This document shows positions 4,300 to 29,295 of a stretch of 64,000 bases of DNA, piece after piece. The position numbers and the translations under genes were made by a program. The stretch comes from Mesorhizobium sp. PAMC28654. GTDB taxonomy: Bacteria; Pseudomonadota; Alphaproteobacteria; Rhizobiales; Rhizobiaceae. The notes under the pieces were generated by a model, which had not been told where the DNA came from, ran no database searches, and saw only the letters and a program-made list of their open reading frames with translations. Location: assembly GCF_020616515.1 (NCBI RefSeq), contig NZ_CP085135.1, forward strand, positions 2,666,001-2,730,000, read 5' to 3'. Each line of letters starts with the position of its first letter. Positions within the stretch are counted from its first letter, which is position 1.

Positions 4300-4371
4300 T
4301 CGCGGCAATGAGGCTCGACCGGTTGGGCACGTCTCAAACAATGGCGGGTTGATCCTTCAGGCCATCTATCC

Positions 4372-4411: not shown

Positions 4412-4570
4412 CTTTCCATACACACGATCCGCCTCACCCCGTAATCCAGCTGGGTCCGCGCATCGCTTCCCCAGGCACAGTGCGATCCCCGCATTGGCCC
4501 TTGAACGCTCAAGTCGGACCCGCGTAACATCGCGGCATCTGAACTGAGTCTGCTTCATTCGTCCGGGCTA

Positions 4571-6453: not shown

Positions 6454-8345
6454 TGTCGACACAGAGCGACGACGAGAAGGACGACACCAGCGGACGGCCG
6501 ACAAAGGCTGTCGTCGGCTCGCATCGCGACGAGGAAGAGGTTTTTGGCAAAGCCTACGACCCGCGCATTGTCAGGCGTATCTGGAGCTTCGTGAAGCCGT
6601 ATCAGGGCAAGATCCTGATCTCGGTCGCCGCGGTGCTGGTGTTCACGCTGACGCAGCTCGCGATCCCGCTGATCATCCGCTACGCCATCGACCATGGCAT
6701 GACGAAAGGCAGGCTCGACCAGTCGGTGATGATCTCAGCGATCGGCGCCTTCACGGTGATCATCCTCATCAACTATGCCGCCAGCCATGTGCAGGAAAGC
6801 GTCGTCGGCAAGGTGGCCGAGAATGTGCTGTCGGACCTGCGCCGCGCCATGTTCAGCCATCTGCAGCGCGTGTCCCTAAGCTTCATGGACAAGACCGAGG
6901 TCGGCCGGCTGATGTCGCGCCTGCAGGGCGACGTCAATTCGATGCAGGAATTCCTCGAGACATCCGTCATGTCGGTGGGCGACATCGTACTGTTGTTCGG
7001 CATCGTCAGTGTCCTTTTGTGGCTGGATTTCCGGCTCGGGCTGCTGACGCTGTCGACCATGCCGGTGCTGTTCATCGTGCGCCTGTTCTGGCTGCCGCGC
7101 GCCAAGGTCGCCTTCATGGCCGCGCACGAAACAAACTCAATCGCCAACGGGGCGCTGGCCGAAGGCATCCATGGCGTGCGCACGGTGCAGAGCCTGGAGC
7201 GCCAGCACGTCAATTTCGACCTTTATGACGAAAAAGTGCTGGCCAACCTCAATGCACATCTGCGGTCGGCGAAATACGCCCAGGTGATGGTGCCGATCGT
7301 CGATACGCTGACCGGCATCGCCATGGCGACGGTCATCGTCGTCGGCGGTTCGATGGTGCTGTCGCACAGCCTCGACGTCGGCGTCATGGTGGCGTTCCTG
7401 TTCTACATCCAGCGCTTCTTCGACCCGATCCGCTCGCTCACCATGCAATACAGCGTGATGCAGCGCGCCATGGCCTCGGGCCAGCGCATTTCCGAAGTGC
7501 TCGACGTGCCCGTCGACGTCAGCGACAAGGACGAGGCCATCGCGCTGTCGCGGGACATGGACGGCTCGGTCGAGTTCAGGAACGTCACTTTCGGCTACCG
7601 GCAGAACCAGCCGGTGCTGAAGAACATCTCCTTCCGCGTCAATCCGGGTGAGACCGTGGCGCTGGTCGGCCCGACCGGATCGGGCAAGTCCAGTTCCATG
7701 GCGCTGGTGCACCGCTTCTACGATGTCTGGTCGGGTGAGGTTCTGGTCGGCGGCCATGATGTGCGTGACCTGACGCAGGACTCGCTTGGCGACCAGGTGG
7801 CCATGGTCTTGCAGGAGCCGTTCCTGTTCTCCGGCTCGGTGCTGGAGAACATCCGCTACCACAAGACATCAGCCACCCGCGAGGACGTGGTTCGCGCGGC
7901 GCAGGCCGTCGGCGCGCACGATTTCATCGAGCAACTGCCCAATGGCTACGATACCGAACTCGAGCAGCGCGGCGGCAATCTCTCGCTCGGCCAGCGCCAG
8001 CTGATCAGCTTCGCGCGGGCGCTGGTGGCCGACGCCAAGATCCTTGTGCTTGACGAAGCCACCGCCAGCATCGATTCCTACACCGAGATGCTGATCCAGA
8101 AGGCACTGGTGAAGCTGCTGGAAGGCCGGACGGGGCTGGTCATCGCCCACCGCCTGGCCACCATCCGCGGCGCCGACCGCATCATCGTCCTGCAGAACGG
8201 CGAGATCGTCGAAAGCGGCAACCATGAACAGTTGATGGAAAGAAAGGGCCTCTATGCCCGGCTCTACAACATGAACTACGCCTCGTTCGACGACATCGCG
8301 GAGGGCGAGATGGAACTGGAAGCGGCGGTCGGCAAGGCGACATGA
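6453..8345 (+). CDS. ABC exporter subunit B (membrane + ATPase)
   Basis: This is the second half-transporter of a pair, 630 residues from the ATG at 6453, which overlaps the preceding stop codon. A charged N-terminal tail leads to six membrane segments (about 50-330) and an ATPase domain with Walker A GPTGSGKSS (406-414), a signature altered to LSLGQ (510-514), and Walker B LVLDEA with an intact catalytic Glu535. The partner has the opposite defects: good signature, Asp for Glu. This matches asymmetric heterodimeric exporters such as BmrCD or TM287/288. The substrate cannot be told from sequence. Confidence 0.9.
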   Translation: MSTQSDDEKDDTSGRPTKAVVGSHRDEEEVFGKAYDPRIVRRIWSFVKPYQGKILISVAAVLVFTLTQLAIPLIIRYAIDHGMTKGRLDQSVMISAIGAFTVIILINYAASHVQESVVGKVAENVLSDLRRAMFSHLQRVSLSFMDKTEVGRLMSRLQGDVNSMQEFLETSVMSVGDIVLLFGIVSVLLWLDFRLGLLTLSTMPVLFIVRLFWLPRAKVAFMAAHETNSIANGALAEGIHGVRTVQSLERQHVNFDLYDEKVLANLNAHLRSAKYAQVMVPIVDTLTGIAMATVIVVGGSMVLSHSLDVGVMVAFLFYIQRFFDPIRSLTMQYSVMQRAMASGQRISEVLDVPVDVSDKDEAIALSRDMDGSVEFRNVTFGYRQNQPVLKNISFRVNPGETVALVGPTGSGKSSSMALVHRFYDVWSGEVLVGGHDVRDLTQDSLGDQVAMVLQEPFLFSGSVLENIRYHKTSATREDVVRAAQAVGAHDFIEQLPNGYDTELEQRGGNLSLGQRQLISFARALVADAKILVLDEATASIDSYTEMLIQKALVKLLEGRTGLVIAHRLATIRGADRIIVLQNGEIVESGNHEQLMERKGLYARLYNMNYASFDDIAEGEMELEAAVGKAT

Positions 8346-8440
8346 CCGCGGCTGGGAGCCCCGCCGCGAGGGCGACCATAGTCCAACAGCGTTGACGGCA
8401 GGAGCCTCGGATCATAGCCAGTCGGCATAGGTTTCCGCAG

Positions 8441-8486
8441 TTGACTTTCCGAACATAAACATATTTTTATGGATCGGAAAACTCGT
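8441..8486 (+). promoter_or_regulatory. candidate promoter and operator upstream of the M81 peptidase
   Basis: TTGACT (8441-8446) is followed by an A/T-rich block containing TATTTT (8462-8467) and TTTTAT (8465-8470), with spacings of 15 or 18. TTTCCGA (8446-8452) and TCGGAAA (8474-8480) form an inverted repeat around it. The motif CGGAAAAC resembles sequences upstream of the peptide-binding protein gene and the dehydrogenase gene of the same island. This is pattern-reading only. Confidence 0.35.
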
Positions 8487-8512
8487 TTCAAGTCAGCGCC
8501 TGAGGTGGTTTC

Positions 8513-9977
8513 GTGAAGTTGTTCATTGCCGGGCTGGATACTGAAACCAATACGTTTTCTCCGATACGCACCGGCCATCACGCCTTTGTCGAGGGCCAGA
8601 TTGCCCATGGCGATGCGACGACGAAGCCGCTGAATTGCTGCTCTTCGCAACTCTTTGTCTGGCGCAATGCGGCGCGCGAACGCGGCTGGAATGTCGTCGA
8701 AAGCCTGTGCGCCGTGGCTGAGCCCGGCGGCACGACGACACGCCGTCTACGAGGATTTCCGCGGTGAAATCCTGCGCGACCTCAAGGCCGCCATGCCGGT
8801 CGATGGGGTGCTTCTCGCCCTGCACGGCGCTTGCGTCGCCGAGGGCTACGATGATGTCGAAGGCGATCTGCTAGCCCACGTCCGGGCGCTGGTCGGACCC
8901 GATATCCCGGTTGGCGCGGAACTCGACCTGCACTGCCATCTGACTGATCGTATGGTCGAAAACGCCACCATGATCGTCGCCTACATGGAATATCCCCATA
9001 CCGACATCGAGGAGCGCGCAGGCCATCTGTTCGAGCTGATGGTCAAGGTGCTGGCGGGAGAGATCCGCCCGGTGATGGCGCTGTTCGATTGCCGCATGAT
9101 CGGCACTTTCAGGCCCCATCAACAGCCCTTGCGCGGACTGGTCGACCGGATGAAGGCGAGCCAAGGCCGCGACGGCATCCTTTCGGTGTCGTTCGGCCAC
9201 GGCTTTCCGTGGGGCGATGTCGCGGATGTCGGCGCCAAGATGCTGGTCGTCGCCGATCGCGACGCGGGCAAGGCGCATCAAGTCGCCTCCGCCTTCGGCC
9301 GCGAGATTTTCGCCCTGCGCGAAGCGTTGGAACCCCATCATCTCAGCATCGACGACGCGCTTGACCGCGCGATGGCGATCGAGGGCGGCCCGGTCGTGCT
9401 GGCCGACGTTTCGGACAATGCGGGCGGCGGCGCTCCGGGCGACTCCACCTTCGTCATTCGTCGCGTCATCGAGCGCGGCATACGCGGCGTCGCCAGCTGC
9501 CTGTACTGGGATCCGATCGCGGTGCGGCTGTGCCAGGCCGCCGGCGAAGGCGCGACGTTGCCGCTTCGGATCGGCGGCAAGATCGGGGCGGCATCGGGCG
9601 AACCGATCGACCTCAATGTCACCGTGCGCCGCATCGCTTCAGGCGTTACCCAACGCTTTGGCGTGGTGCCGCTGCCGATCGGCGATGCCGCCTGGGTGAG
9701 CGCCGACGGTATCGATCTGGTGATCAACAGCGTGCGCACGCAAACCTTTCACCCCGAATGCATGACCGCGCTTGGTCTTGATCCCGCCACCCGCAAGATC
9801 GTGATCGTCAAGTCGAGCAACCATTTTCGGGCCGGTTTCGAGCCAATCGCCAAGGACATCCTCTATGTGGCCGCCCCCGGAGCGCTGCAGCCCAATTTCC
9901 GCGATCTGGCATACACCAAGCTGCGGCAGCCATACTGGCCGAAGGTCGCGGAACCGTTCGCGGAATTGGCGCTGTAA
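8513..9977 (+). pseudogene. M81 family metallopeptidase (MlrC-like), frameshifted
   Basis: The M81 family includes MlrC, a metallopeptidase that cleaves linearised microcystin fragments; many members sit with peptide transporters. Family features are ALHGAC followed by the YDDVEGDLL segment, ELDLHCHLTDRM with probable metal ligands, and a C-terminal VKSSNHFRAGFEP motif. Translation starts at GTG 8513 (MKLFIAGLDTETNTF, typical of the family). The first frame stops at 8767; the rest (VYEDFRGEILRDL onward) is in another frame, so a single shift lies near 8736-8742. The restored length is about 488 residues, as expected. It faces away from the exporter genes and heads an apparent D-peptide island. 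Confidence 0.85.
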
Positions 9978-10055
9978 TCAGCGCCAGGATTCAGCGTTTG
10001 CGGCGCGTGTGCCGTGTAGATAGATCGCCCTCGCGCGCCCACCCACCATCCGCTT

Positions 10056-11081
10056 TCAGATATCACCCGCCTGCGCGCGGTGACAGCGCACCGAGCGCGG
10101 CCATGCCACCTTGTCCGGCTTTGGTGTCGTGGCAGTCCCGGCAGGATCGCCGAATTCGATGAGCGACTGCGGACGGTCACAGCCGGCGGCGGCGAAGGAG
10201 CAGCGGTCGCGGTAGTAGCAGCCGGTCGGCAAGATGCGGTTGTTGGGAAGCTCGCCGACACGGGTCGCTGCAAGCTCGGGCAGCGGGTGCTTGAGGCTCG
10301 GAACCGTGGCCAGCAAGGTCCTGGTGTAGGGATGCGCGGGTGAATCGAGCACCTGCACGGCAGGTCCGGCCTCGACAATCTGGCCCAGATACATCACCGC
10401 CACGCGATCGCAGAAGTGGCGCACGAGCGAGACGTCGTGCGAGATCATCAGATAGGCGAGGCCCAGCTCGCGCTGAAGTTTCAGCAGCAGGTTGATGATC
10501 TGAGCCTGCACGGAGACGTCCAGCGCGGATGTCGGCTCGTCCAGGATCAACAGATCCGGATCGGTGCTGATCGCCCGCGCAACGGCGATGCGCTGCCGCT
10601 GGCCGCCGGAGAATTCATGCGGCCGCCGGTCGAGGTGCTCCGGCCGCAGGCCGACGGAAGCGGCAAGTTCGGCGGCGCGAGCCCGCAACGCAGCCTTCGA
10701 CATTCCGCCGCGCACATGCAGCGGCTCGGTGATCAGTCGCCACACCGGCAGGCGAGGATCGAGCGAGGATTGCGGGTCCTGGAACACGATCTGCATCTGC
10801 TGGCGGATTTCACGTTTGCGCTTGCCGCGCGCGTCGTGAAAATCCTGGCCGTCGATCAGCACCTTGCCCGAGCTCCGCTCGACAAGGCCGATGATCGCCT
10901 GGACGAGCGTGCTCTTGCCGCAGCCGGATTCACCGACAATGCCGAGGCTTTCCCCCGGGCGGATCGCAAGGTCAACCTTGTTGACGGCATGAACATGCGA
11001 GGTGGCCCGGCCGAACCAGCCTCCGGGAATGGGAAAGTTGACGGTAAGGTCCTCGACGCTGAGAAGAGGCGCGGTCGTCAT
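10056..11081 (-). CDS. dipeptide/oligopeptide ABC importer ATPase (DppF-like)
   Basis: This is the second ATPase of a peptide importer, 341 residues. It has Walker A GESGCGKST (50-58), signature FSGGQRQ (157-163), Walker B LLILDEP (177-183) and the C-terminal oligopeptide-transporter extension with its Cys-containing segment (GCYYRDRC...C). I chose ATG 11081 because it overlaps the stop of the upstream ATPase gene (ATGA) and begins just before the conserved LSVEDLTVNF strand. It is the last gene of a five-gene transporter operon. Confidence 0.92.
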   Translation of the reverse strand: MTTAPLLSVEDLTVNFPIPGGWFGRATSHVHAVNKVDLAIRPGESLGIVGESGCGKSTLVQAIIGLVERSSGKVLIDGQDFHDARGKRKREIRQQMQIVFQDPQSSLDPRLPVWRLITEPLHVRGGMSKAALRARAAELAASVGLRPEHLDRRPHEFSGGQRQRIAVARAISTDPDLLILDEPTSALDVSVQAQIINLLLKLQRELGLAYLMISHDVSLVRHFCDRVAVMYLGQIVEAGPAVQVLDSPAHPYTRTLLATVPSLKHPLPELAATRVGELPNNRILPTGCYYRDRCSFAAAGCDRPQSLIEFGDPAGTATTPKPDKVAWPRSVRCHRAQAGDI

Positions 11082-12118
11082 TGCGTGGCCTCGCTCATGA
11101 TGCTCGATGGTTGGATTGTGCCGCGCCGCCAGCAGGCGACGAGATGACCGGGAGCGGTCGCCACGGACGGAGGTTTTGCCAGGCACTGGTCGTTGGCTTC
11201 GGGACAGCGTGGCCGGTAGAAACAGCCCTGCGGCGGATCAAGCAGGTTGGGCACGGTTCCGGGGATGGCCTCAAGCTCCGCTTTCGGCTCCACGCGTTCC
11301 GGCAGGCAGCGCAGCAGCGCTTGCGTATAGGGATGCTGCGGCGCTTCCAGCACCGCCCGCGTCGGACCGGACTCGACGATGCGGCCGGCATACATGACGT
11401 AGAGCCGGTCGCAGAGCTGCGAGACAACAGCGATGTTGTGCGAGATGAAGACGACCGAGGTGCCGGTTCGCTTGGCGCGGTCGAGGATCAGCCGCAGGAT
11501 CACGGCCTGCACAGTCACATCCAGCGCCGTCGTCGGTTCGTCGGCAATGATCAGGCCGGGGTTGCACGAGAACGCCATGGCGATGAGCACGCGCTGGCGC
11601 ATGCCGCCCGACAGCTCGAACGGATAGGCCTTCATGATCCGGTCGGGTTCGGCGATCAGCATGTCCTTGAGGATGCCGCGCGCCGTGCGCTCGGCCTCTG
11701 CCTCACTGACCGCCTCATGCCGCCGGATGACGCCGACCAGTTGCTTGCCGATGCGGATGGTCGGGTTGAGCGCGTTCATCGGCTCCTGGAAGATGGTCGA
11801 GACCAGCTTGCCCCTGACATCCTGGAGCTCGGTTTCGCCCATCGCGAACGGATCGCGGCCAAACAGGCGGATGCTGCCTGATGTGACGCGGTAGCGGCCT
11901 TCCGGCAGGAGCCGTGTCGCCGCCATCGTGGTCACCGACTTGCCGCATCCGGACTCGCCGACAAGGCCGACGATCTCGGAGGTGCCGATCTCGATCGTCA
12001 CGTCGTCGAGCGCCTTGATGGCGCCGGCATAGGTGGGGAATTCCAGCGACAGGCCTTCGATGCTCAACGCTGCGGGTTTTTGCCCGGCAGACTTCAGTAT
12101 TCCGGATGCCGCCGCCAT
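11078..12118 (-). CDS. dipeptide/oligopeptide ABC importer ATPase (DppD-like)
   Basis: This is the first ATPase of the importer, 346 residues from the ATG at 12118, which overlaps the stop of the permease gene. Walker A is GESGCGKS (54-61), the signature is LSGGMRQR and Walker B is LIIADEPTTALDVT, the standard Dpp/Opp form. The C-terminal extension carries GCFYRPRC. It pairs with the DppF-like protein on the cytoplasmic face to energise peptide import. Confidence 0.92.
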   Translation of the reverse strand: MAAASGILKSAGQKPAALSIEGLSLEFPTYAGAIKALDDVTIEIGTSEIVGLVGESGCGKSVTTMAATRLLPEGRYRVTSGSIRLFGRDPFAMGETELQDVRGKLVSTIFQEPMNALNPTIRIGKQLVGVIRRHEAVSEAEAERTARGILKDMLIAEPDRIMKAYPFELSGGMRQRVLIAMAFSCNPGLIIADEPTTALDVTVQAVILRLILDRAKRTGTSVVFISHNIAVVSQLCDRLYVMYAGRIVESGPTRAVLEAPQHPYTQALLRCLPERVEPKAELEAIPGTVPNLLDPPQGCFYRPRCPEANDQCLAKPPSVATAPGHLVACWRRGTIQPSSIMSEATQ

Positions 12119-13014
12119 CACCGTCCTCCCAACCGTGGATCGAGCATGTCGCGAATGCCGTCGCCCAGCAGGTTGCAGCCCATCGCGGTGATCAGGATGG
12201 CAAGGCCGGGAAAGGTGCAGTACCACCACTGGTCGAGGATGTAGTTGCGGCCGGTGCTGACCAGCGCGCCCCATTCGGACGTCGGCGGCTGTGCGCCCAG
12301 CCCGATGAAGCTCAAGGCGGCAGCGATCAACACGATGCCGCCGAGGTCAAGCGTTGCCTGCACGATGATCGGCGACAGCGCGTTGGGCAGGACATGCCAG
12401 CGCAGGATGTAGAGCGGCGAAGCGCCGAAGGTACGCGCCGCCTTGACGAAGACGCGCTCCCGCAACGACAGCGTCTGCCCGCGCGCCAGCCGCACATAGG
12501 CGGGGATGCGCACCAGCGCCACGGCCAGCATCGAGTTGACCAGGCTTGGCCCAAGTGCCGCCGCGAGCGCCATGGCCAGGACCAGCGCCGGCAGCGCCAT
12601 GATGACGTCCATCAGCCGCATGATCGCGGTATCGATGCGGCCGCCCAATATGGCGGACATGCATCCGATCACCACGCCGACACCAACCGATATCAGGACG
12701 ATCATGAACGCCGCGACGCAGGAGGCACGCGAGCCGAAGATGATGCGTGAAAACAGGTCGCGACCCACCTCGTCGGTGCCGAACCAGTGCTGCGCGCTCG
12801 GCGGTTGCAGACGCGCCGACAGCATCAGCTTGTCGGGATTGTAGGGCGCGATCAGGGGTGCTGCGACAATCATGATGATGACCATGACGATGATCGCCGC
12901 GCCAACCAGCGTCAGGGGGCTGCGGCGTGACAGATACCAGAGAAAATGCAGCCGCGATTTCCAGCCGGAAGCGGCTGGGACGGCCTGTATCGCGGGAGAG
13001 GTCACACTCATCAT
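12118..13014 (-). CDS. peptide ABC importer permease (DppC-like)
   Basis: This inner-membrane permease has 298 residues: a short cytoplasmic N-terminus, a first span near 37-58, a periplasmic loop with the family motif HWFGTDEVGRDLFSR, and five more spans. The EAA-type cytoplasmic loop (AARTFGASPLYILRWHVLPNAL) contacts the ATPases. It overlaps both neighbours by a few bases, so translation is coupled. It is clearly the DppC/OppC class rather than DppB. Confidence 0.92.
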   Translation of the reverse strand: MMSVTSPAIQAVPAASGWKSRLHFLWYLSRRSPLTLVGAAIIVMVIIMIVAAPLIAPYNPDKLMLSARLQPPSAQHWFGTDEVGRDLFSRIIFGSRASCVAAFMIVLISVGVGVVIGCMSAILGGRIDTAIMRLMDVIMALPALVLAMALAAALGPSLVNSMLAVALVRIPAYVRLARGQTLSLRERVFVKAARTFGASPLYILRWHVLPNALSPIIVQATLDLGGIVLIAAALSFIGLGAQPPTSEWGALVSTGRNYILDQWWYCTFPGLAILITAMGCNLLGDGIRDMLDPRLGGR

Positions 13015-14027
13015 CCGATCTCCCGGATCTGCGGATCGGCGAACATGTAGGCGATGTCGACGATCAGGTTGATGAGGACATAGCCGATCGATGCAACCAC
13101 GGTGAATCCCATGATCGCGGGAAAATCCAGCGTCTGGATCGAGGTGACGACATAGGTGCCCATGCCCGGCCAGGCGAACACGGTTTCGGTCAGCACCGCA
13201 CCGTATAGAAGGTCGCCCAGCGCCAGGCCAAGCAAGGTGATCGACGGGATCAAGGCGTTGCGCAAGGCATGGTTGAAGATGATGACCCGGCGACGCAGGC
13301 CGCTGGCGCGCGCGGTCCGGATGTAGTCCTCCTGAAGCACGTCCAGCATCGATGCCCGGATCTGGCGCGTGATGACACCGAGATTGGCGAAGGCGAGCAC
13401 GAAGGAGGGCAAGATGAGATGCCGCACCGAGCTCCAGAACGCGTCCATGCGACCCTCAAGCAGGGAATCGATCAGGAAGAAGCCGGTGACGCGCGTTGGG
13501 AGCGCGATGCCCATGTCGATGCGCCCGCTGCCGGGCAGTATGTGCAGCTTGGCGTAGAACAGCAGCACCAGAACCAGCGCGAACCAGAACACCGGCATCG
13601 AGATGCCGCAGACCGAGATGGTGCGCGCCACCTGATCGATCGGCCCGTCCTTGTAGATGGCGGACGCAACGCCAAGCGGAATGCCGATCACGATCGCCAG
13701 GATCAGGGAGATGGCGCCGAGCTCCATCGTTGCCGGTAGGAAGGTGGCGATGTCGCCGGCAACCGAGCGCCGCGTGCGCAGCGAGGTGCCGAGGTCGCCA
13801 TGCAGCAGGTTGCTGACGTAGATGGTGAACTGGTCCCACACCGGCCGGTCGAGCCCGAGGTCACGCCGCACACTCATCAGCGTCTCGGCGCTTGCCCTGT
13901 CGCCAGCGATCATCCGGGCTGGGTCGCCTGGGATCAGGTGGGAAATGATGAAGGTGATGACAGCGACGCCGAAGACGACGAAGAACAGCATCACGAAGCG
14001 GGGAATGATAATGCGCATGATCGTCAT
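13011..14027 (-). CDS. peptide ABC importer permease (DppB-like)
   Basis: This permease has 338 residues and the DppB/OppB architecture: an N-terminal span (FVMLFFVVFGVAVITFII), the HLIPGDPAR loop, and four to five further spans. The coupling helix is near ARASGLRRRVIIFNHALRNALIP, and FAWPGMG precedes the end. It forms a heterodimeric channel with the DppC-like protein. About 265 bases without a visible gene separate it from the binding-protein gene upstream, where I see no strong hairpin. Confidence 0.92.
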   Translation of the reverse strand: MTIMRIIIPRFVMLFFVVFGVAVITFIISHLIPGDPARMIAGDRASAETLMSVRRDLGLDRPVWDQFTIYVSNLLHGDLGTSLRTRRSVAGDIATFLPATMELGAISLILAIVIGIPLGVASAIYKDGPIDQVARTISVCGISMPVFWFALVLVLLFYAKLHILPGSGRIDMGIALPTRVTGFFLIDSLLEGRMDAFWSSVRHLILPSFVLAFANLGVITRQIRASMLDVLQEDYIRTARASGLRRRVIIFNHALRNALIPSITLLGLALGDLLYGAVLTETVFAWPGMGTYVVTSIQTLDFPAIMGFTVVASIGYVLINLIVDIAYMFADPQIREIG

Positions 14028-14292
14028 GTGAGGCCGGTCCTCGTGGCGCTGCGGGCTTCTCTTTATCCCTACGGAACTTGGCGACCGGCAAGGCGTTGCG
14101 CCTCACCGATCGTCAGACATTATTCGACGCTTCCCGGACTCAAGTTATCTTCGAGACTACACGGCCAGACGCTTCCGGCAACCGACCGGAAGGCATCTGG
14201 CGTTGCAGCGCTGCGCAAGGCAGGGATGCCTAAAATGTCAGATTCCATATGTGCGACGAACGGGAGCGCCAATGGCGCCCCGTCGCGCGCGG

Positions 14293-15834
14293 TCATTCCG
14301 ACTTCGACATGGTGGCGAAGTTGTAGACCTGGATCAGCATCGGGTTGTAGACGTAGCCCTTGACCACCGCGCGGCGCGCGAAGATGTCATTCTTCTGCAT
14401 CAGGTAGAGGTAGGGCGCATCTTCAGTCGATAGCTTCTGTGCCTCGAGATAGAGCTGCTCGCGCTTTGGCTGGTCGATGATGCTTGCGGCCTCGCGAACA
14501 AGGCCGGCGACCTTGGGATTGTTGTAGAAGGCGCGGTTGCCCGGGCCGCCCATCCGGTCCGGATCGAACCAGTAGTTCATGAACATGTAGGGGTCGGCGA
14601 AATCGGGCGTCCATGCACCTGGCGCCAGGTCGTAATTGCCGCTCGCCGCCATTTCGCGTTTGGTGGTGTCGGCAACGGCCTGCAGGTCGAGCTTGATGCC
14701 GATGTCGGCCAGATTGGCTTGCAAGGCGAGGCCTACCGGTTCCCAGGCCGTGTCGGCCTGCGAGAATGTGTAAGTGAGGTGGATGTCGGACTTGCCGGAT
14801 TCCTTCAACAGCGCCTTGGCCTTCTCGACATCGTAGCTGTACTGGAAGCCTTTGGGGTCATGCCCCCACATGCCATCCGGAACGGCGCCGCGCATCTGCT
14901 CGGCCTGGCCCTGCATGATGCCGTCGACGATGCCCTTGTAGTCCACCGCGTAGGAGATTGCCTGGCGCACGCGCACATCGTCGAGCGGCGGCCGCTTGTT
15001 GTTCATATAGATGTAGTTGACGTAGAGGCTCGGATTGCTCTCGACAACGATGTTGCTGTCGCTTTTCAGCGCGGCGGCCTGGTCGACCGGAACCTGTTCG
15101 ATGATGTCGGCATCGCCGTTGACGAGTTGCAGGCGGCGCGCCGAGATCTCTCCTACGGTGCGCACCACGATCTGCTTCAGGGCCGGAGTTGGGCCACTGT
15201 AGTGCTCATTGCGATCGAGCACGACGCTCTGGTTGCGTTCCCAGCTGGTGATCTTGTAGGCGCCGCTACCGGCGGTGTGCTCGGCCAGCCAGGCCTTGGC
15301 CATGTCGCCATCTTTTTCGTGCTCCATCACCTTGGGATTGATGATGGCGGCACCGGAGACGGCCATGGTCGAAAGGAACGGCGCGAACTGCGACGACAGG
15401 ATGAACTTGACCGTGCTGGGATCGACGACCTGAACTTCCTTCAGCACGGGAAAGGCATCGGAAGGACCGGCCTTGAGTTTCAACGCCCGGTCGAAGCTGA
15501 ACTTGACGGCCGCCGCATCGACATCCGTGCCGTCATCGAATTTGTGGCCCTTGGCCAGCTTGAAGGTCCAGACAGTATTGGTATCGTCGACGGACCAGCT
15601 TTCGGCAAGCTCGGGAACGACGTCGGTGGTGGCGCCCTTGTAGGCCACAAGGTGCTCATAGGCGGCATAGATGAAGGTATAGCCGCTGTTGCTGATCTCG
15701 ACACCGGGGTCCGCGGTCGGCGCATCCTCCGCCCGGCTGAGAACCAGCACATCCGACGCGGCCCAAGCCGCTTGCGTGAGCGATGAGGTGACTAAAAGGG
15801 CAAGGCCCAGCTTCTTCCAGTGCGCGAAAACCAT
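14293..15834 (-). CDS. periplasmic peptide-binding protein (SBP family 5)
   Basis: This binding protein delivers substrate to the importer encoded just downstream. From ATG 15834 it has 513 residues; GAGGGTAGAGAG precedes that ATG, while a longer frame would start in untranslated leader. A Sec signal peptide (MVFAHWKKLGLALLVTSSLTQAAWA) is followed by the family-5 signature region (FDDGTDVDAAAVKFSFDRAL) and DDVRVRQAISYAVDY. The family binds di- and oligopeptides, among other ligands. The surrounding D-specific hydrolases suggest D-residue peptides. Confidence 0.92.
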   Translation of the reverse strand: MVFAHWKKLGLALLVTSSLTQAAWAASDVLVLSRAEDAPTADPGVEISNSGYTFIYAAYEHLVAYKGATTDVVPELAESWSVDDTNTVWTFKLAKGHKFDDGTDVDAAAVKFSFDRALKLKAGPSDAFPVLKEVQVVDPSTVKFILSSQFAPFLSTMAVSGAAIINPKVMEHEKDGDMAKAWLAEHTAGSGAYKITSWERNQSVVLDRNEHYSGPTPALKQIVVRTVGEISARRLQLVNGDADIIEQVPVDQAAALKSDSNIVVESNPSLYVNYIYMNNKRPPLDDVRVRQAISYAVDYKGIVDGIMQGQAEQMRGAVPDGMWGHDPKGFQYSYDVEKAKALLKESGKSDIHLTYTFSQADTAWEPVGLALQANLADIGIKLDLQAVADTTKREMAASGNYDLAPGAWTPDFADPYMFMNYWFDPDRMGGPGNRAFYNNPKVAGLVREAASIIDQPKREQLYLEAQKLSTEDAPYLYLMQKNDIFARRAVVKGYVYNPMLIQVYNFATMSKSE

Positions 15835-15930
15835 CTCTCTACCCTCTGAGGTTCGGTGGACTCGAACGACGCCTGTTTCCGGCAATTTGTCCGCACGATC
15901 AGATTAGGCAACGATTTTCCGAAGCGCAAC

Positions 15931-16635
15931 TTATTTTCTTATCGTACGCGCCACTTGCTCGACCTTGGCGCGTGGCGCCAATTTTGAAATGGCGCTTTCC
16001 TCGATCGCGGATGAGCCGATCGCATCGATCAGGTCTTTCTCGGTCGTGGAGCAGATACAGACAAAGCGTGCCGGCTTCTCGCTGACCGTCACATAGGCAT
16101 GCCCCATGGTTGCGTCGAAATAGACGGAATCCCCGACCTTCAAGGTCACAGGCTCATAGTGCTCGGTGTGAAGTTGCAGCTCGCCTTCGACCACATAAGT
16201 ATATTCTTCGCCGACATGGCGAATGAAAGGGCCGAATTCTTCCATCGTGCGGGCGTGCGCCACGCCGAACATCGGGACGATCGATTTTTTCGAGATGTCG
16301 GTGCACAAATAGAGGTAGTCGTAGTTCTTGGTCTTGATGGAGCGGCCTTCGCCGGCCCTGCTGATCGTGCGGCGTCCCAACGGACTCGGGCTGGCTTCCG
16401 TGGCACGGGTCCCGAACAACTCGACAATGTCGACCTTCAACCCTTCCGCCAACTGAACAATGCGGTCGTAGGTCAACGACATCTGGTTGTTTTCAACCTT
16501 GGACAACGTAGATATGGCGAGCCCTGTCATCGCGCTGACTTGCGACAAGGTCCAGTGATTGCGCGTGCGGATTTCCCGCAGGAAATCGCCCAGGCTGGCT
16601 TTCTGATCCGTCATATTCGTTGCCGCATCCCGCAT
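15931..16635 (-). CDS. XRE-family regulator with C-terminal cupin domain
   Basis: The 234 residues carry an N-terminal helix-turn-helix of the XRE class (about 15-68, LSQVSAMTGLAISTLSKVENN) and a C-terminal cupin fold (about 115-195, EEYTYVVEGELQLHTE, then DSVYFDATMGHAYVT). Members of this class, such as PuuR, commonly repress amino-acid or amine catabolic genes and respond to a small ligand held in the cupin. It sits between the minus-strand importer operon and the plus-strand D-amino-acid genes, so it probably controls both. The start could also be ATG 16614. Confidence 0.88.
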   Translation of the reverse strand: MRDAATNMTDQKASLGDFLREIRTRNHWTLSQVSAMTGLAISTLSKVENNQMSLTYDRIVQLAEGLKVDIVELFGTRATEASPSPLGRRTISRAGEGRSIKTKNYDYLYLCTDISKKSIVPMFGVAHARTMEEFGPFIRHVGEEYTYVVEGELQLHTEHYEPVTLKVGDSVYFDATMGHAYVTVSEKPARFVCICSTTEKDLIDAIGSSAIEESAISKLAPRAKVEQVARTIRK

Positions 16636-16678
16636 TTCAGGTCACTAACGATAGTACACTCTAATTTTTTGCGCGATA

Positions 16679-16740
16679 TGGAAAACTGCTTGATCTATAG
16701 GAAAAATAAGTTTCTGATGAGATCAATCAGTATCGGGTGA
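16679..16740 (+). promoter_or_regulatory. candidate operator and promoter of the D-amino-acid operon
   Basis: The stretch between the divergent regulator and the dehydrogenase gene is A/T-rich. It contains TGGAAAAC (16679-16686) and GGAAAAATAAG downstream of it. Related CGGAAAA motifs occur upstream of the peptide-binding protein gene (15915-15921, minus strand) and the M81 gene (8475-8481). This is a candidate binding site for the XRE-cupin regulator; no -35/-10 pair is clear. Confidence 0.3.
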
Positions 16741-17892
16741 ATGATGTTCGACTTTGTTGTGATCGGCGGCGGCATGGCGGGCGCCTCCGCTGCCTATGAG
16801 CTGGCCGATGGGGCGAGCGTCCTGCTTCTCGAGCGAGAGGAGCATTGCGGCTATCACACGACGGGCCGCTCGGCCGCGCTCTTTTCTGAAACCTACGGCA
16901 ACGCCACCATCCGGTCGCTGACGAGGGCCAGTCGCGGTCCGTACGAGGCGCCACCGGCCGGCTTTGCCGACCACCCTCTGCTGACGCCGCGCCATGTGCT
17001 TTTCATCGCGCGTGCCGATCAGGAAGCAAGCATCGCACATCTGGCCGAGATATTCGCGCGGACGGGCGGAAAGCCGTCGCGGGTTCTCAGCACCGACGCC
17101 GTGCGCGAGCGCGTGCCGATCATGCGCGCCGACTATGTGGCGCAGGCCCTACTCGACGAGACCTCGATGGACATCGACGTCCACGCCCTGCATCAAGGTT
17201 ATCTGCGCGGCGTGCGCGCCCGGGGCGCCCGCATCGCGGTCTCCGCCGAAGTCCTCGATATCGATCGGGGTTCCTCCGGCTGGCGGATCACCACGGCCAA
17301 GGAGCAATTCGAGGCCAGAACTATCGTCAATGCCGCCGGCGCGTGGGCCGACACCATCGCGGCCATGGCCGGTGTTGCAACGGCCGGACTGACGCCACTG
17401 CGGCGTACCGCCATGATGCTGGACCTGCCCGATGGCGTTGACGCTTCGTCCTGGCCGCATGTGATCGACGTCGATGAGGAGTTCTATTTCAAACCCGATG
17501 CCGGGCGGCTTCTGGCCTCGCCGGCGGACGAAACGCCAAGCGCTCCTTGTGATGCGCAGGCCGATGAGTTTGACATTGCCGTCGCCATCGACCGCATCCA
17601 GCAAGCGGCCGACCTGCCGGTGCGTTCGATTTCGCGCCGATGGGCGGGCCTGCGCACCTTCGCCGCCGACCGTAGTCCGGTGGTTGGCTTCGACCCGCAT
17701 TGCGAGGACTTCTTCTGGTTGGCTGGCCAGGGCGGCTATGGCATCCAGACCGCCCCGGCGCTGGCGAAAGTGGTCGCCGCACTGGCCCACCGCAGACCCA
17801 TTGCCGACGAGATCCTCGAAGCCGGTTTCGATCCCGATACGGTGTCGCCCGCTCGCGCCGGGATTGGCGCCGCTGTATATGCCACCACATAA
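16741..17892 (+). CDS. FAD-dependent D-amino acid dehydrogenase (DauA-like)
   Basis: This 383-residue flavoenzyme of the DAO family has the dinucleotide fold GGGMAG at residues 9-14. The segment GYHTTGRSAALFSETYGN with LTRASR is characteristic of D-arginine dehydrogenase (DauA) and close relatives, which oxidise D-amino acids to keto acids plus ammonia. The C-terminal flavin-contacting region is GQGGYGIQTAPALAK. Only 24 bases separate it from the next gene, a D-amino-acid PLP enzyme. A broad D-amino-acid substrate range is inferred from family and context. ATG 16744 is an equally possible start. Confidence 0.85.
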   Translation: MMFDFVVIGGGMAGASAAYELADGASVLLLEREEHCGYHTTGRSAALFSETYGNATIRSLTRASRGPYEAPPAGFADHPLLTPRHVLFIARADQEASIAHLAEIFARTGGKPSRVLSTDAVRERVPIMRADYVAQALLDETSMDIDVHALHQGYLRGVRARGARIAVSAEVLDIDRGSSGWRITTAKEQFEARTIVNAAGAWADTIAAMAGVATAGLTPLRRTAMMLDLPDGVDASSWPHVIDVDEEFYFKPDAGRLLASPADETPSAPCDAQADEFDIAVAIDRIQQAADLPVRSISRRWAGLRTFAADRSPVVGFDPHCEDFFWLAGQGGYGIQTAPALAKVVAALAHRRPIADEILEAGFDPDTVSPARAGIGAAVYATT

Positions 17893-17916
17893 TTCTGATC
17901 TGGGGGAGATCATCCA

Positions 17917-19179
17917 ATGGCCTTCAACCTTGACGCGCTGGCGTCGGTCGTCCTGGACGACAGCATCAAGGGCATTCCGTTCGGCGCAACGCTCAGGCTC
18001 GCCGATGTCGCCAGCCAGGGCTGGAATTTGCTTTCCGGCGACCTGCCGCTGCCGGCAGCGATCATCCGTGCCGACGCGCTGGCCCACAATTCGCGCTGGA
18101 TGCAGCGCTTCGTGGCCGAGCGTGGCGCGCTGATTGCCCCGCACGTCAAGACGACAATGTGCCCGCAGATCATTGCCCGCCAGATCGCCGATGGCGCCTG
18201 GGGCGTGACTGTCGCGACGGTCCAGCAGATGCGGGTCTGCCGCGGCTTCGGCGCGGAGCGGATCATCCTTGCCAATCAGGCGGTCGGACGATCGGAGCTC
18301 GACGCGATCGCCGCCATGGTCGGGGAACCCGACCTCGACTTCATGATGATCGTCGACAGCGCAGCCGGCATCGAGGCGGCAGCAGAAGCGATGCGGCGCA
18401 ACCAGCTTGAGCGCCCGCTGCAACTGCTCCTCGAACGCGGCTACCCGGGCGGCCGTACCGGATGTCGGACCAATGATATCGCCCTCGCCATCGCCAGGCA
18501 GATACGCGCCACCCCGGGGCTTCGCCTTGTCGGGATCGAGGCTTTCGAAGGTCTGATCAAAACCGAGAACGGGTCACCCGAGCAGGCAGTCGGGGGTTTC
18601 ATGGATGAAATCGCCGCACTCTTTGGCCTTTGCGTGGGTGAAGGCCTGTTCGAGAGCGACGCGCCGCTGGTCACGGCCGGCGGCTCTTCCTACTACGATA
18701 TCGTCATCGACAGGCTGGCGAACTGCGGCGCCCGCGTGGTGACGAGAAGCGGCTGTTACGTCACACACGATTCCGGGCTCTATCAGAGCGCACACCAGCG
18801 CCTGCAGGCCAAGACCGGCGAACAGGACGGCCTGCGCCGGGCGCTTGAAATCTGGACCTATGTACAATCGATTCCTGAGCCCGGGCTTGCCCTGCTGACC
18901 GCGGGCCGGCGCGACTGCGGCACGGATTCGGGATTTCCGGTGCCGCTGCTCCTGTCACGCGCGGGCGCCCCCCCGCAGGACTTGCCGCCAGGGTGCGAGA
19001 TCGTCAACCTCAACGATCAGCACGCCTACATGCGCTTCCCCGCCGATCTGCCGCTTGCGGTCGGCGATCGTGTCGGGCTCGGCATTTCCCATCCATGCAC
19101 AACGTTCGACAAGTGGCAGATCATCTACCTCGTCGACGACGACTACACGGTGATCGAAGCCATGAAGACCTTCTTCTGA
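17917..19179 (+). CDS. D-serine deaminase-like PLP enzyme (DSD1/D-threonine aldolase fold)
   Basis: The 420 residues adopt the alanine-racemase-type barrel followed by a C-terminal beta domain. Lys78 in APHVKTTM is the expected PLP-binding lysine, and His392-x-Cys394 (GISHPCTTF) matches the zinc ligand pair of eukaryotic-type D-serine dehydratases. The family includes D-threonine aldolase, D-serine dehydratase and related D-amino-acid deaminases; the exact reaction is not certain. GGGGGAGA precedes the ATG. The position after a DauA-type dehydrogenase supports D-amino-acid breakdown in the cytoplasm. Confidence 0.85.
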   Translation: MAFNLDALASVVLDDSIKGIPFGATLRLADVASQGWNLLSGDLPLPAAIIRADALAHNSRWMQRFVAERGALIAPHVKTTMCPQIIARQIADGAWGVTVATVQQMRVCRGFGAERIILANQAVGRSELDAIAAMVGEPDLDFMMIVDSAAGIEAAAEAMRRNQLERPLQLLLERGYPGGRTGCRTNDIALAIARQIRATPGLRLVGIEAFEGLIKTENGSPEQAVGGFMDEIAALFGLCVGEGLFESDAPLVTAGGSSYYDIVIDRLANCGARVVTRSGCYVTHDSGLYQSAHQRLQAKTGEQDGLRRALEIWTYVQSIPEPGLALLTAGRRDCGTDSGFPVPLLLSRAGAPPQDLPPGCEIVNLNDQHAYMRFPADLPLAVGDRVGLGISHPCTTFDKWQIIYLVDDDYTVIEAMKTFF

Positions 19180-19238
19180 AGCTTCTCGCGGCGATGCCCT
19201 GTTGATTGCTTCCGATTGATTTTGCGAGGAGACCACCG

Positions 19239-20909
19239 ATGAGCAGACTTTCCGCCGCCGCTGTCGAGCTGTTCGAGGATTTGATCCGGCAGCAGGTCGA
19301 GGACAAGGCGATCCCCTCCATCTCCTATGGCCTTGTCGACCACGACGGGCTGATGGCGGCCGGCCATATCCAGCGCCATGACCGCAGCTTCGCCATGGGT
19401 GACGACACCTGTTTCCGGATTGGCTCGATCACCAAGACATTCACCGCCTTGTCGATCATGCAGCTTGCCGAAAAAGAGCTCGTCGATCTCGATGTCGACG
19501 TTTCCGAATACCTGCCCGGCTTCAAGCCGATCAACCCGTTCGCCGGGCGAGAGGGCGGCCCGCATGGCTCACAGATCAGCCTGCGCAAACTGCTGAGCCA
19601 CACCGCCGGCCTGGTGCGCGAGCCCAAGAGCGGCCACTATCTGGACGCGGCGCGTCCGCCACTGGCCGATACCGTCGCCGAGCTCGCCAGCTCGACGCTG
19701 AAACAGGATCCGAGCCTGGGCGAGATGCATTACTCCAATGCCGGCATCGCCGCGGCCGGCAGGGTTATCGAAACGGTGACGGGCAAGAGCTATGCCGAAT
19801 ACGTCACCGAGAATATCCTGAAGCCGCTTGGCATGGACCAGACCTCATCAGGCCTGGCGCCCGGGATCGCCGAGCGCCTAGCGCCCGCCGACATGTGGAC
19901 GCTGGACGGCGACAGTCCCGCGCCCGTGTTCGACCTTGGCGGCCCGCCGGCCGGCAACATCTATTCCACCATTGGCGACATGGCACGTTATGCCCAGTGC
20001 CTGCTGCGCGGCGGCTTCGCACCGGATGGCCGGGCGATCGCATCGCCCGCTTCGCTGCGCGAGATGTGGGTGCCTATCGGCAGGCGTCCCGCCGCTGAAA
20101 GAGTGGCGAACACCTACGGCCTTTGCTTCGGCGTCGGCGATGTCGATGGCTGGACGTCCGTTGGCCATGGCGGTGCGGTCTATGGCTACGCCTCGCAGAT
20201 GATCCTGCTGCCGGCCGCCGGCGTCGGCGTGCTGATCTTCTCGACGCTGGACTTCTCCAACCAGATCGGTGCGCGGCTTGGTGTCGAGGGGCTGCGCATC
20301 GCGCTGGCCGAACGCCGCATGGGCACGCTACCGTCGCGGCGGCAGAGCCTGCCGGCTGTCGCCGTCGACCAGCTTGCCGCGCTGCCCGGCCACTACCGGC
20401 ACGAAACTTCCGGCGAGGTCGTCGAGGTCAAGGCCAAGGGCGGCAAGCTCTATCTGATGGGCGAAGGCGTGCCGTTGCAGATCCGCCCCATCGCCGGTCC
20501 CGATTTCACCATTGACGGGCGCATCTATGGACGCGACGCCGAATATCCACACATGAAGCTGTCATTCCCCGCTCCCGGCGCGCTGGTGTGGAAGAGGGCG
20601 AACTGGTCACGCATTGAGGCACTGCCCACAGAGTCAGTGCCGACCGGGATCGCGCCGCATCTCGGCGAATACGGCCCGGACTTCAACATCACCTATCTGA
20701 GCTGCAGCCATGGCGAGTTGAAATGCCTGATCGAGTATTTCTGCACGCATAGCTGCGAGCCGGTGGACGCCGGGCGTTATCGAATGCATGGCCTGCTCTA
20801 CGAAGAGGAAATCCTCGAACTCGACGCCGTCGACGATCACGGCCGGCGCGGCATCCGGGTTGGCCCGATGTTCCTCGAGCGCCGGCCCACCGCAAAAGCG
20901 GGCGGCTGA
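19239..20909 (+). CDS. serine hydrolase of the beta-lactamase/D-aminopeptidase (S12) family
   Basis: The ATG at 19239 has a good ribosome site (GAGGAG); an earlier in-frame start at 19206 does not. The 556 residues begin with an S12 penicillin-binding fold: SxxK with Ser63 and Lys66 (GSITK), YSN at 165-167, and an HGG motif (GHGGAVYGY). About 180 extra C-terminal residues follow, fitting the multi-barrel layout of Ochrobactrum D-aminopeptidase DAP, which removes N-terminal D-residues. No signal peptide is seen, so it is probably cytoplasmic. It is the third gene of the plus-strand D-amino-acid operon. Confidence 0.82.
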   Translation: MSRLSAAAVELFEDLIRQQVEDKAIPSISYGLVDHDGLMAAGHIQRHDRSFAMGDDTCFRIGSITKTFTALSIMQLAEKELVDLDVDVSEYLPGFKPINPFAGREGGPHGSQISLRKLLSHTAGLVREPKSGHYLDAARPPLADTVAELASSTLKQDPSLGEMHYSNAGIAAAGRVIETVTGKSYAEYVTENILKPLGMDQTSSGLAPGIAERLAPADMWTLDGDSPAPVFDLGGPPAGNIYSTIGDMARYAQCLLRGGFAPDGRAIASPASLREMWVPIGRRPAAERVANTYGLCFGVGDVDGWTSVGHGGAVYGYASQMILLPAAGVGVLIFSTLDFSNQIGARLGVEGLRIALAERRMGTLPSRRQSLPAVAVDQLAALPGHYRHETSGEVVEVKAKGGKLYLMGEGVPLQIRPIAGPDFTIDGRIYGRDAEYPHMKLSFPAPGALVWKRANWSRIEALPTESVPTGIAPHLGEYGPDFNITYLSCSHGELKCLIEYFCTHSCEPVDAGRYRMHGLLYEEEILELDAVDDHGRRGIRVGPMFLERRPTAKAGG

Positions 20910-20996
20910 CGGTGTCTTCAAAGCATTCGCCCGGGCAGATCGACCGGCGGTCGAGGTCGATGACCGGGCTTCTTTAACATCCAGGGAGGACAGACA

Positions 20997-21794
20997 ATGA
21001 AGGTATTCATCAGCGCCGATATCGAAGGCACGGCCGGCATCACCAATTGGGACGAGGCCAAGAAGGGCAATCCCGACTATGCCGAGTTTCGCGAATACAT
21101 GACCGACGAACTGGTCGCGGCCTGCGAGGGCGCGAGGGCGGCTGGCGCCACCGAAGTGGTGGTGAAGGACGCGCACTCGACCGCGCGCAACCTCATCTTG
21201 TCAAAACTGCCGGACTATGTCCGTATCGTGCGCGGCTGGAGCGGCCATCCCGACATGATGATGTTCGGCATAGATGACAGCTTCGCCGCCGCACTCTACA
21301 CCGGCTACCACAACAAGGCGGGGACAGACACCAACCCGCTGGCGCACACCTTGACCGGCACCGTGTCGCGGCTGCTGATCAACGGCGAGGTCGCCTCGGA
21401 ATATACGCTGAACGCGCTCTGCGCGGCGCGCTATCGCGTGCCTTCGGTGTTCCTCAGTGGCGATGCCGGCATGTGCGCCGAAGCGAAGGTGCTGGTGCCG
21501 GCCATAGGCACGGTGGCGACCAGCGAGGGCTTTGGCCCGGCAACCTCGTCGCTGACGCCTGGAGCCTCGGTCAAGGCGATCCGCAACGGGGTTGAAGCGG
21601 CGCTGTCGCGCGACCTGTCGGCCTGCCTGCCCCGGCTGGCCGACCGTTTCGAGCTGGTGGTCGAGTACACCACGCCGATCGAAGCCTATCGGGGCAGTTG
21701 GTATCCGGGCGTCGAGCACGTGGCGGCGCGCACGCTCCGCTTCAAGGCCGCGGATTTCTTCGATATCCAGCGCGCGGTGCGTTTCATCGTCTGA
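20997..21794 (+). CDS. dppA: D-aminopeptidase DppA (M55 zinc peptidase)
   Basis: The 265 residues match the M55 family, a ring-forming zinc D-aminopeptidase first described as DppA of Bacillus subtilis. The ligand pattern is clear: Asp8 and Glu10 (SADIEG), His60 (DAHST), His105 (TGYHNKAG), then HTLTG near 117 and a Glu in the 131-135 region. DppA releases D-Ala and similar residues from short peptides. GGGAGGA lies upstream of the start. It is the fourth and last gene of the operon, beside a peptide importer as in Bacillus. Confidence 0.92.
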   Translation: MKVFISADIEGTAGITNWDEAKKGNPDYAEFREYMTDELVAACEGARAAGATEVVVKDAHSTARNLILSKLPDYVRIVRGWSGHPDMMMFGIDDSFAAALYTGYHNKAGTDTNPLAHTLTGTVSRLLINGEVASEYTLNALCAARYRVPSVFLSGDAGMCAEAKVLVPAIGTVATSEGFGPATSSLTPGASVKAIRNGVEAALSRDLSACLPRLADRFELVVEYTTPIEAYRGSWYPGVEHVAARTLRFKAADFFDIQRAVRFIV

Positions 21795-21884: not shown

Positions 21885-22310
21885 CTATGCCTGTATGGTC
21901 GGGGTGGTATTCGGGAGCAATGCCTCCTCCGCCTCATGGTCTTCGGGAAGGCTCTCACCGTGGAGGAGCAACGGTGTTCCTAACCAGACCGGGTCAATCA
22001 AATGGTCTCGCCGCGGGTTCGTGGTGTTGGGATGAACAAGAATGCTGAGACCGCGATGGTTGAGCATCAGCCATGGCACGAGGCTGGCAAAAACGTCGTT
22101 TGCGAATGAGACCTGAACCATCGGTTGATCATGCGGCCCGACCTTCGCGTCATGCCAATTCCCAAGCCGAACCAGAAAGCGTTCGCCGATCGCCGCCCGC
22201 AGCCACTCCGCATCTGGGCGGGTACTCTGGCCGTCGTAATAGACATGCGCATGATAGCTGGCGATTTCCGAAAGGAGCCGAGGCTCATTTTTCACGCCGG
22301 AAAGGTTCAT
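21885..22310 (-). CDS. DOPA 4,5-dioxygenase family protein
   Basis: The 141 residues carry the hallmarks of the small DOPA-4,5-dioxygenase-like family: YHAHVYYD with an HxH pair, [13 protein letters not shown], and [14 protein letters not shown]. Plant and fungal relatives cleave catechols; bacterial members are mostly uncharacterised. I prefer ATG 22310 ([10 protein letters not shown]) because residues upstream of it in the longer frame are not family-like. It is a single minus-strand gene between the D-peptide operon and glutathione peroxidase. Confidence 0.8.
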
Positions 22311-22475
22311 TTCATATCTCCCACGCTCTCGCTGACCCGACTTGTACTGGCAGCCCACACATAAAGGGCATAGCTCAAGGTGCCCAGCAATTTAGTCCTG
22401 GAGAATAGCGTTCCTTGACGGGCACGGCAAAGCGACCAATGTACGGGCGATGTTTGCCTGTTGGGAATTTTACCT

Positions 22476-24454: not shown

Positions 24455-24483
24455 TTGACTTATTTCCGTTTCGGAAATGAAAT
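24455..24483 (+). promoter_or_regulatory. promoter with perfect palindrome before the Lrp-type gene
   Basis: TTGACT (24455-24460) and TGAAAT (24478-24483) are spaced by 17 bases. Between and overlapping them lies the perfect 17-base palindrome ATTTCCG-TTT-CGGAAAT (24462-24478). It covers the first in-frame ATG (24477), which argues that the true start is 24513. A palindrome on the promoter of an Lrp/AsnC gene is a natural autoregulatory site. Confidence 0.55.
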
Positions 24484-24512
24484 TGATAAATCGTGCCGAT
24501 ACGGACAGCCAG

Positions 24513-25019: not shown

Positions 25020-25022
25020 CCC

Positions 25023-27684: not shown

Positions 27685-27718
27685 TCGTCCGTACGTAGCC
27701 AAACAATGGGAGACTGAA

Positions 27719-29282: not shown

Positions 29283-29295
29283 GGCCCGTGGCAGC

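Follow-up and report, generated by a model that had tools for sequence, protein, structure and literature searches.

An eleven-gene island of Mesorhizobium sp. PAMC28654 probably encodes a regulon that scavenges dipeptides and short peptides containing D-residues. It lies in G000:C1:2666001-2730000, a 64-kb stretch of the 6.70-Mb single-contig genome, which is called the window here. The regulon would combine import by a Ddp-type ATP-binding cassette (ABC) transporter, hydrolysis, D-amino-acid breakdown and control by an XRE-cupin protein, and would have been assembled by the fusion of two modules. Import, release of D-residues and deamination appear to be the best reading of the island because the gene set co-occurs in other genomes, survives rearrangement there and has parts replaced in kind, and because its importer is of the Ddp type.

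Pfam and NCBIfam searches verified the families named in a preliminary description of this DNA. The island contains an M81/MlrC hydrolase, a five-gene Dpp-type ABC importer, an XRE-cupin regulator, a DauA-like flavin adenine dinucleotide (FAD) enzyme, a DSD1-like pyridoxal phosphate (PLP) enzyme, an S12 peptidase and an M55 peptidase (Table 1). The regulator had been placed between two transcription units. Its position was confirmed; gene orientation, however, gives at least three units: M81 rightwards, XRE with ddpABCDF leftwards, and dauA-dsd-S12-M55 rightwards. Over the whole 6.7 Mb, three M81 genes (one in two pieces), two M55 genes and one DSD-like gene at 1e-30 were counted, and 13 S12 genes exceeded the model cut-off. 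The small numbers of M81, M55 and DSD genes, together with conservation of the set in other genomes, argue for more than a chance grouping. Chance neighbours were rejected as an explanation, since the set stays together despite rearrangement in relatives.

The peptide importer, announced as complete, has all five genes and is by its sequence of the Ddp (D-Ala-D-Ala) type. Identity to the E. coli MB53 proteins is 46-59% (Table 1). With the NCBIfam model of the D,D-dipeptide permease DdpC (cut-off 434), 31 matches were obtained in the whole genome, many of them partial. The island gene is the sole one above the cut-off, the next reaching 305.8 bits. In the E. coli control genome no match exceeded this cut-off, although eight listed E. 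coli records annotate ddpC. When the DNA of the two permeases was used as a query, annotated ddpB-ddpC were recovered in 8/8 E. coli records among the matches listed, at roughly 66% identity across 73-76% of the query, and 4,894 of 5,426 E. coli genomes gave some match. The permeases of a second importer of the window (29296-31154) are 42-43% identical to DdpB/C. E. coli ddpXABCDF stands in a table row of a study of the NtrC nitrogen stress response as 'D-ala-D-ala dipeptide transport and dipeptidase' (PMC4066584). A tblastn search limited to the window found nothing resembling E. coli DdpX, a VanX-type D-Ala-D-Ala dipeptidase (best E 6.4).

To compare gene neighbourhoods, named genomes were scanned for DSD relatives. 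Eleven of the 24 loci obtained (L003-L012 and L022) carry a DSD gene at 62% identity or more, and the other 13 at 37-44%; the closest named relative by this gene is a Mesorhizobium (91%). The core, consisting of M81, the five ddp genes and XRE, was found within 10 kb in 11/11 loci of the first group. Three gene orders were observed: M81, ddpFDCBA-XRE, DauA-DSD in the window, M. norvegicum and Phyllobacterium; DauA, XRE-ddpABCDF, M81, DSD in M. huakuii and its kin (L022 without DauA); and ddpFDCBA-XRE, DSD, M81, M55 in Pseudochrobactrum. The preliminary description had proposed this comparison and had named a lack of co-occurrence as what would speak against its idea; the set was instead found together, across rearrangements. 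DauA is present in 8/11 loci (absent from L007, L008 and L022) and S12 orthologues (76-90%) in 5/11. M55 is present in all eleven, at 87-97% identity in L003, L009, L010, L011 and L022 and at 33-40% in L004-L008 and L012, where it adjoins M81. A search of nine hosts (L005 and L009 left out, genes assigned to loci by coordinates) showed that seven have a single M55 gene, located in the island, and that the two Pseudochrobactrum have two, one of them in the island.

In a family sample of 297 genomes, DSD (1e-30) was found in 38, M55 in 40 and both in 17, as compared to 5.1 expected under independence; this overlap was counted by hand and takes no account of kinship or genome size. Within the genus the island is sporadic, since the binding protein (1e-180) was found among 61 genomes only in the genome itself and in two others, at 97% and 53%. 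XRE homologues were too numerous (2226 at 1e-30) to serve as a marker. In Phyllobacterium sp. T1293 the island is carried on a 477-kb plasmid, and the annotation of the record names M55, M81, ddpC, XRE, a FAD-binding oxidoreductase and an amino acid deaminase. Its neighbours there are a creatininase-family gene and, at the opposite end, an ABC-S12-M81-FAD set. A third module, an ABC importer with S12 and M81, adjoins the island in Phyllobacterium (L112 13278-24059; right of L004 and L012) and in L112 additionally has a FAD oxidoreductase.

The origin of the S12-M55 part was approached from M55. From 49 matches in the family sample, 40 loci of 12-20 kb were fetched, including the second M55 of this genome; the match in the window, two island loci already known and six fragments were excluded. 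Neighbours in these 40 loci were M81 in 7, S12 in 6, KBL in 6, a DauA- or DadA-like FAD enzyme in 3, XRE in 2 and DSD in 0. All six loci having S12 (6/40 overall) show the order S12-KBL-M55, each beside an importer. Two further loci reached through the M55 search and not through DSD, L074 (genome G216) and L092 (G270), keep the core (ddp genes 62-82%, XRE 64 and 67%, M81 75%) with M55 and a FAD enzyme. The best NCBIfam model for the FAD enzyme of L074 is D-amino acid dehydrogenase, and the L092 copy stands at 80%; neither DauA nor DSD was found in these two loci within the 20 kb fetched. G216 and G270 hold S12-KBL-M55 at separate places (L094, L093). In M. huakuii-type loci both modules lie side by side, with two importers and without KBL. 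In M. norvegicum (L003), S12-KBL-M55 directly follows DauA-DSD, the KBL/BioF-like gene being a twelfth gene between S12 and M55 (L003:12647-13741; 184.7 bits with the bioF model, cut-off 426). The window is identical in arrangement except that KBL is deleted. A scar around 20902-20980 is 79% identical to the 3' end of the L003 gene over 109 aligned positions, which run into the start of M55. The S12-M55 pair resembles the end of an S12-KBL-M55 operon linked to a transporter, joined on by fusion. Modules apart in G216 and G270, adjacent in M. huakuii-type loci and fused in M. norvegicum and the window would form a clear case of pathway assembly, the order of events being read from these combinations. 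Another arrangement was seen in L089 (G342), where 3534-10282 holds a ddpABCDF set (51-63%) with KBL (73%) directly behind; no M81, M55 or XRE match was found there within 20 kb.

Common regulation was examined next to gene content. A palindrome of the type AAGAAA-N6-TTTCTT is located between XRE and dauA. It was described by a 29-base matrix, which replaced an earlier 20-base one and was built from six loci (window, L003-L006, L012); for the scan of a given locus, its site was withdrawn from the matrix. In 6/6 of these leave-one-out scans the XRE-dauA site ranked highest and was followed by a site upstream of M81. The latter scored 19.7 bits in L003, 28.2 in L004, 28.3 in L005, 27.7 in L006 and 31.0 in L012. 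A background of 589,505 bases of other loci contained no match at 20 bits or more and one at 18. Outside the training set, the M81 site was again second in L112 (31.1 bits), a Phyllobacterium locus like four of the six training loci. The top matches of L074 and L092 (22.1 and 17.6 bits) lie on the far side of ddpF, and those of L009, L010, L011 and L022 at the XRE-ddpA junction (17.8, 22.6, 6.1 and 10.6 bits). Recurrence of the palindrome upstream of M81, 8 kb from the XRE-dauA copy, suggests a single regulon, and co-inheritance points to the XRE protein as its presumed ligand. The top match of L074 precedes a creatininase-family gene. Such a gene, with another binding protein, is found beside the island in L074 (3-806), L091 (4308-6806) and L112 (1-1819), and both may be further regulon members.

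Both D-amino-acid enzymes of the preliminary description are present. The structure nearest to the FAD enzyme is Pseudomonas aeruginosa DauA (PaDADH, 3nyc), of which the carboxylate and gate residues Y53, R222, E246, Y249 and R305 are kept. The two differ at E87, which holds the guanidinium group in PaDADH and is Val in the window, and at H48, which is Leu. In seven orthologues aligned with it (L003, L004, L005, L009, L011, L012 and L112; L006 and L010 left out), residue 87 varies between Val, Ala and Cys, and residue 48 is Leu. Because the guanidinium partner is replaced and H48 is Leu, D-Arg was rejected as the main substrate, and a neutral one such as D-Ala is likelier. The PLP enzyme is nearest to the D-serine deaminase 3gwq, well ahead of D-threonine aldolases (79.5 and 72.4 bits). 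Lys78, His392 and Cys394, recorded in the preliminary description as Lys78 and His392-x-Cys394, are invariant in the window and 11 orthologues. Like zinc D-serine dehydratases (3gwq; chicken DSD), the island enzyme has the PLP lysine and a His-x-Cys metal site, where the D-threonine aldolase 4v15 has His-x-Asp. The same distinction of metal ligands, His and Cys in D-serine dehydratase and His and Asp in D-threonine aldolase, is drawn in a passage of PMC4401734. D-threonine aldolase activity was rejected on this basis. The 3-hydroxy-D-aspartate aldolase model gives 71.8 bits against a cut-off of 690. D-Ser-like residues would be the substrate of the island enzyme.

The metal site (PMC4401734, in part) would also fit another target, namely D-Ser, D-Thr or 3-hydroxy-D-aspartate peptides of non-ribosomal or siderophore origin; the DSD1-like enzyme would then carry out the main reaction, and D-Ala would be secondary. 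DSD occurs in 11/11 relatives, by selection, versus 8/11 for DauA. On the other hand, the core exists without DSD in the fetched 20 kb of L074 and L092, and no siderophore or non-ribosomal peptide gene is among the Pfam hits of the island. We consider this target very unlikely.

Among the hydrolases, M55 keeps equivalents of the DppA metal ligands D8, E10, H60, H104 and E133. The S12 protein, presented earlier as DAP-like, belongs to the S12 family, and its best structure match is an alkaline D-peptidase. The M81 gene encodes motifs matching the MlrC zinc ligands E39, D167, H169 and H191/196, although a frame break splits them in this strain, and its larger piece also matches 3iuu (154 bits). 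Its score of 325.1 bits with the NCBIfam MlrC model compares with a cut-off of 999 (model type 'exception'). The preliminary description had named cyanobacterial peptides as a possible target, and the 298 bits of M81 to microcystinase C agree with degradation of microcystin-like peptides. So does its company with S12, which recalls mlr, as PMC11070527 compares MlrB with the penicillin-recognising enzyme family. M81 is nevertheless a broad family, no MlrA-type Pfam hit was found among the eleven island proteins, and the kin of the importer serves D,D-dipeptides. This target was dropped as extremely improbable. More tentatively, and with considerable doubt, M81 proteins outside microcystin degraders might be hydrolases of D-residue or isopeptide stem peptides in inducible scavenging regulons, and the mlrC/mlrB pair might have been drawn from such M81+S12 islands. 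On that view the island would be a complete pathway under XRE-cupin control, put together from two transport-linked modules and leading from D-peptides of peptidoglycan to pyruvate and ammonia.

In this strain the M81 gene is split between two frames: roughly its first 77 residues are encoded from 8513 and the remainder in the frame of 8655. The break separates the equivalent of the zinc-binding Glu from those of Asp-x-His and His. In M. norvegicum the gene is intact, with two more bases at the break point. Five frames of the first 33 kb look broken by eye or from split family matches (4571-6271, 8513-9977, 26564-27265, 27590-28630 and 32091-33038), pointing either to assembly indels or to decay of genes in this region. 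Family searches also revealed some split genes elsewhere in the genome. Because of these and of the four other broken frames nearby, an assembly error may account for the M81 break; for the loss of about 1 kb of KBL it is unlikely. A decaying, non-working remnant in this strain, which would be compatible with function in relatives, is suggested by the frame break, the KBL deletion and the palindrome upstream of M81, weaker than in relatives (8.5 versus 19.7-31.1 bits). Against it, all ten remaining genes read as open frames, the break in M81 could be artefactual, and KBL is likewise absent from M. huakuii-type loci. We regard a remnant as fairly unlikely.

Several observations weigh against a D-peptide scavenging regulon. 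In this strain, the M81 frame is broken and KBL is lost, and the palindrome upstream of M81 is weak. The 11 relatives were chosen by similarity to the window, so that part of the synteny reflects common descent. The 13 remoter DSD loci show no island (5/13 are contigs of less than 11 kb), and in 16 distant DSD neighbourhoods of the family sample (34-51% identity) M81 lies beside DSD in two (L047, L049) and a Dpp-type permease within 20 kb in six. Such a permease is near M55 in 27/40 surveyed loci, and is thus common anyway. Named activities also score far below their model cut-offs: 31.7 bits versus 443 for the D-aminopeptidase (DAP) model with S12, so that the DAP part of the earlier assignment fell, 138.1 versus 430 for the Bacillus DppA model with M55, and 160.5 versus 383 for the D-amino acid dehydrogenase (DadA) model with the L074 FAD enzyme. 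As for the operator, the matrix was fixed after the M81 upstream DNA had been seen, and loci outside training therefore weigh more. Among these, the M81-M55 gap of L074/L092 scores only 6.5 bits, and scans of L007 and L008 gave nothing convincing (best 10.2 and 7.3 bits).

Another reading is a general peptide or opine-like uptake island, in which ordinary or plant-derived peptides would be taken up and the D-enzyme names would denote loose families. The S12, M81 and binding-protein families are broad, agrocinopine binders are among the structure matches of the binding protein (with lower scores than others), and M55 genes lie near many different Dpp-type importers. What argues for D-peptides is that the importer is Ddp and not another Dpp/Opp type and that three lineages of D-amino-acid enzyme are found repeatedly beside this core. 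General uptake is unlikely. The earlier proposal of joint import, stripping and oxidation or deamination is retained as the best reading, apart from its microcystin target, on the basis of co-occurrence, of the exchange of M55 and the D-amino-acid enzyme for like lineages, and of the Ddp importer.

Overall, a scavenging route for D-residue dipeptides and short peptides can be drawn as follows. First candidates would be D-Ala-D-Ala and its kin from peptidoglycan turnover, carried into the cell by the Ddp-type importer. The M55 D-aminopeptidase would free D-amino acids inside the cell, with M81 and S12 widening the range of bonds cleaved. The DauA-like flavoenzyme would act on neutral D-amino acids, for example D-Ala, with oxidation to 2-oxo acid and ammonia, and the DSD1-type enzyme would form pyruvate from D-Ser-like residues by removal of water and ammonia. 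Control of the units would be exerted by the XRE-cupin protein through the shared palindrome, the inducer bound by its cupin domain being perhaps a D-amino acid or peptide. The whole would derive from ddpABCDF-XRE-M81 with D-amino-acid enzymes and from the S12-KBL-M55 tail of another peptide-transport operon. For the M81 family, in which the solved and named member cleaves microcystin, this would supply a physiological context that includes a regulator and an importer of a known type.

Table 1. Features of the island, in window coordinates
Feature	Position	Strand	Remarks
Weak match to island palindrome, upstream of M81	8453..8481	-	8.5 bits, second-best leave-one-out matrix match in 64 kb
N-terminal frame piece of M81 (MlrC-like) gene	8513..8767	+	holds equivalent of MlrC Glu zinc ligand
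Remainder of M81 gene, other frame	8655..9977	+	PF07364, PF07171; 298 bits to microcystinase C 7ylq
DdpF-type ATPase	10056..11186	-	57% to E. coli DdpF; start probably near 11081
DdpD-type ATPase	11078..12274	-	54% to E. coli DdpD; start probably near 12118
DdpC permease	12118..13014	-	NCBIfam D,D-dipeptide permease 487.5 bits; 59% to E. coli DdpC
DdpB permease	13011..14027	-	58% to E. coli DdpB; DNA match to ddpBC
DdpA-type substrate-binding protein	14293..15885	-	SBP_bac_5; 46% to E. coli DdpA over 507 aligned positions
XRE-cupin regulator	15931..16635	-	HTH_3 + Cupin_2
Predicted operator (palindrome) between XRE and dauA	16689..16717	+	type AGGAAA-N6-TTTC; kept in window, L003-L006, L012, L112
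DauA-like FAD D-amino-acid dehydrogenase (putative)	16741..17892	+	313.3 bits to PaDADH 3nyc
DSD1-like PLP/metal enzyme, D-serine dehydratase type	17917..19179	+	328.8 bits to 3gwq D-serine deaminase
S12 serine peptidase	19206..20909	+	PF00144; SITK, YSN, HGG motifs; 4y7p 88.8 bits
Scar of deleted KBL/BioF-like PLP gene	20902..20980	+	79% over 109 aligned positions vs L003 gene 3' end
M55 DppA-type D-aminopeptidase (putative)	20997..21794	+	PF04951 285.8 bits; 99.9 bits to 1hi9

Just downstream of M55, on the opposite strand, lies a small DOPA 4,5-dioxygenase-family gene (21885-22358). Used as a query with the next gene, it gave at least a partial match in 30/40 other genomes of the genus, and the matches fall mainly in this part. 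The right flank, searched for in 41 genomes of the genus, returned partial, scattered matches, and therefore no insertion boundary is claimed. Further right, 24477-33038 may be a second peptide/amide operon, with an AsnC-type regulator, a hydantoinase-like HyuA, another Dpp-type importer and a short frame for an S-methyl-thiohydantoin-desulfurase-like protein.

The full set had been put forward as one without a known description, and we found none in the open-licence literature; its two halves have counterparts in E. coli ddpXABCDF and Bacillus dppA. The island shares with the E. coli operon an importer of the same kind. It differs by M55, M81, S12, the D-amino-acid enzymes and the XRE-cupin regulator, and by the lack of a DdpX match within the window, which suggests a natural alternative to a VanX-type dipeptidase behind a Ddp importer. 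In Bacillus subtilis, dppA sits in a dipeptide-transport operon. The island likewise has an M55 gene with conserved metal ligands beside a dipeptide-type importer; here, however, the importer is of the Ddp kind, and M81/S12 and D-amino-acid enzymes are added. With the mlr microcystin cluster (MlrC, MlrB) it has in common an M81 and an S12 hydrolase near a transporter, whereas in mlr the ring-opening enzyme MlrA stands beside MlrC and the importer is another one. Taken together, the comparisons indicate that the island is a real modular variant of ddp/dppA D-dipeptide use, co-inherited and probably under common control, in which M55, M81, S12 and D-amino-acid enzymes would stand in the place of DdpX.

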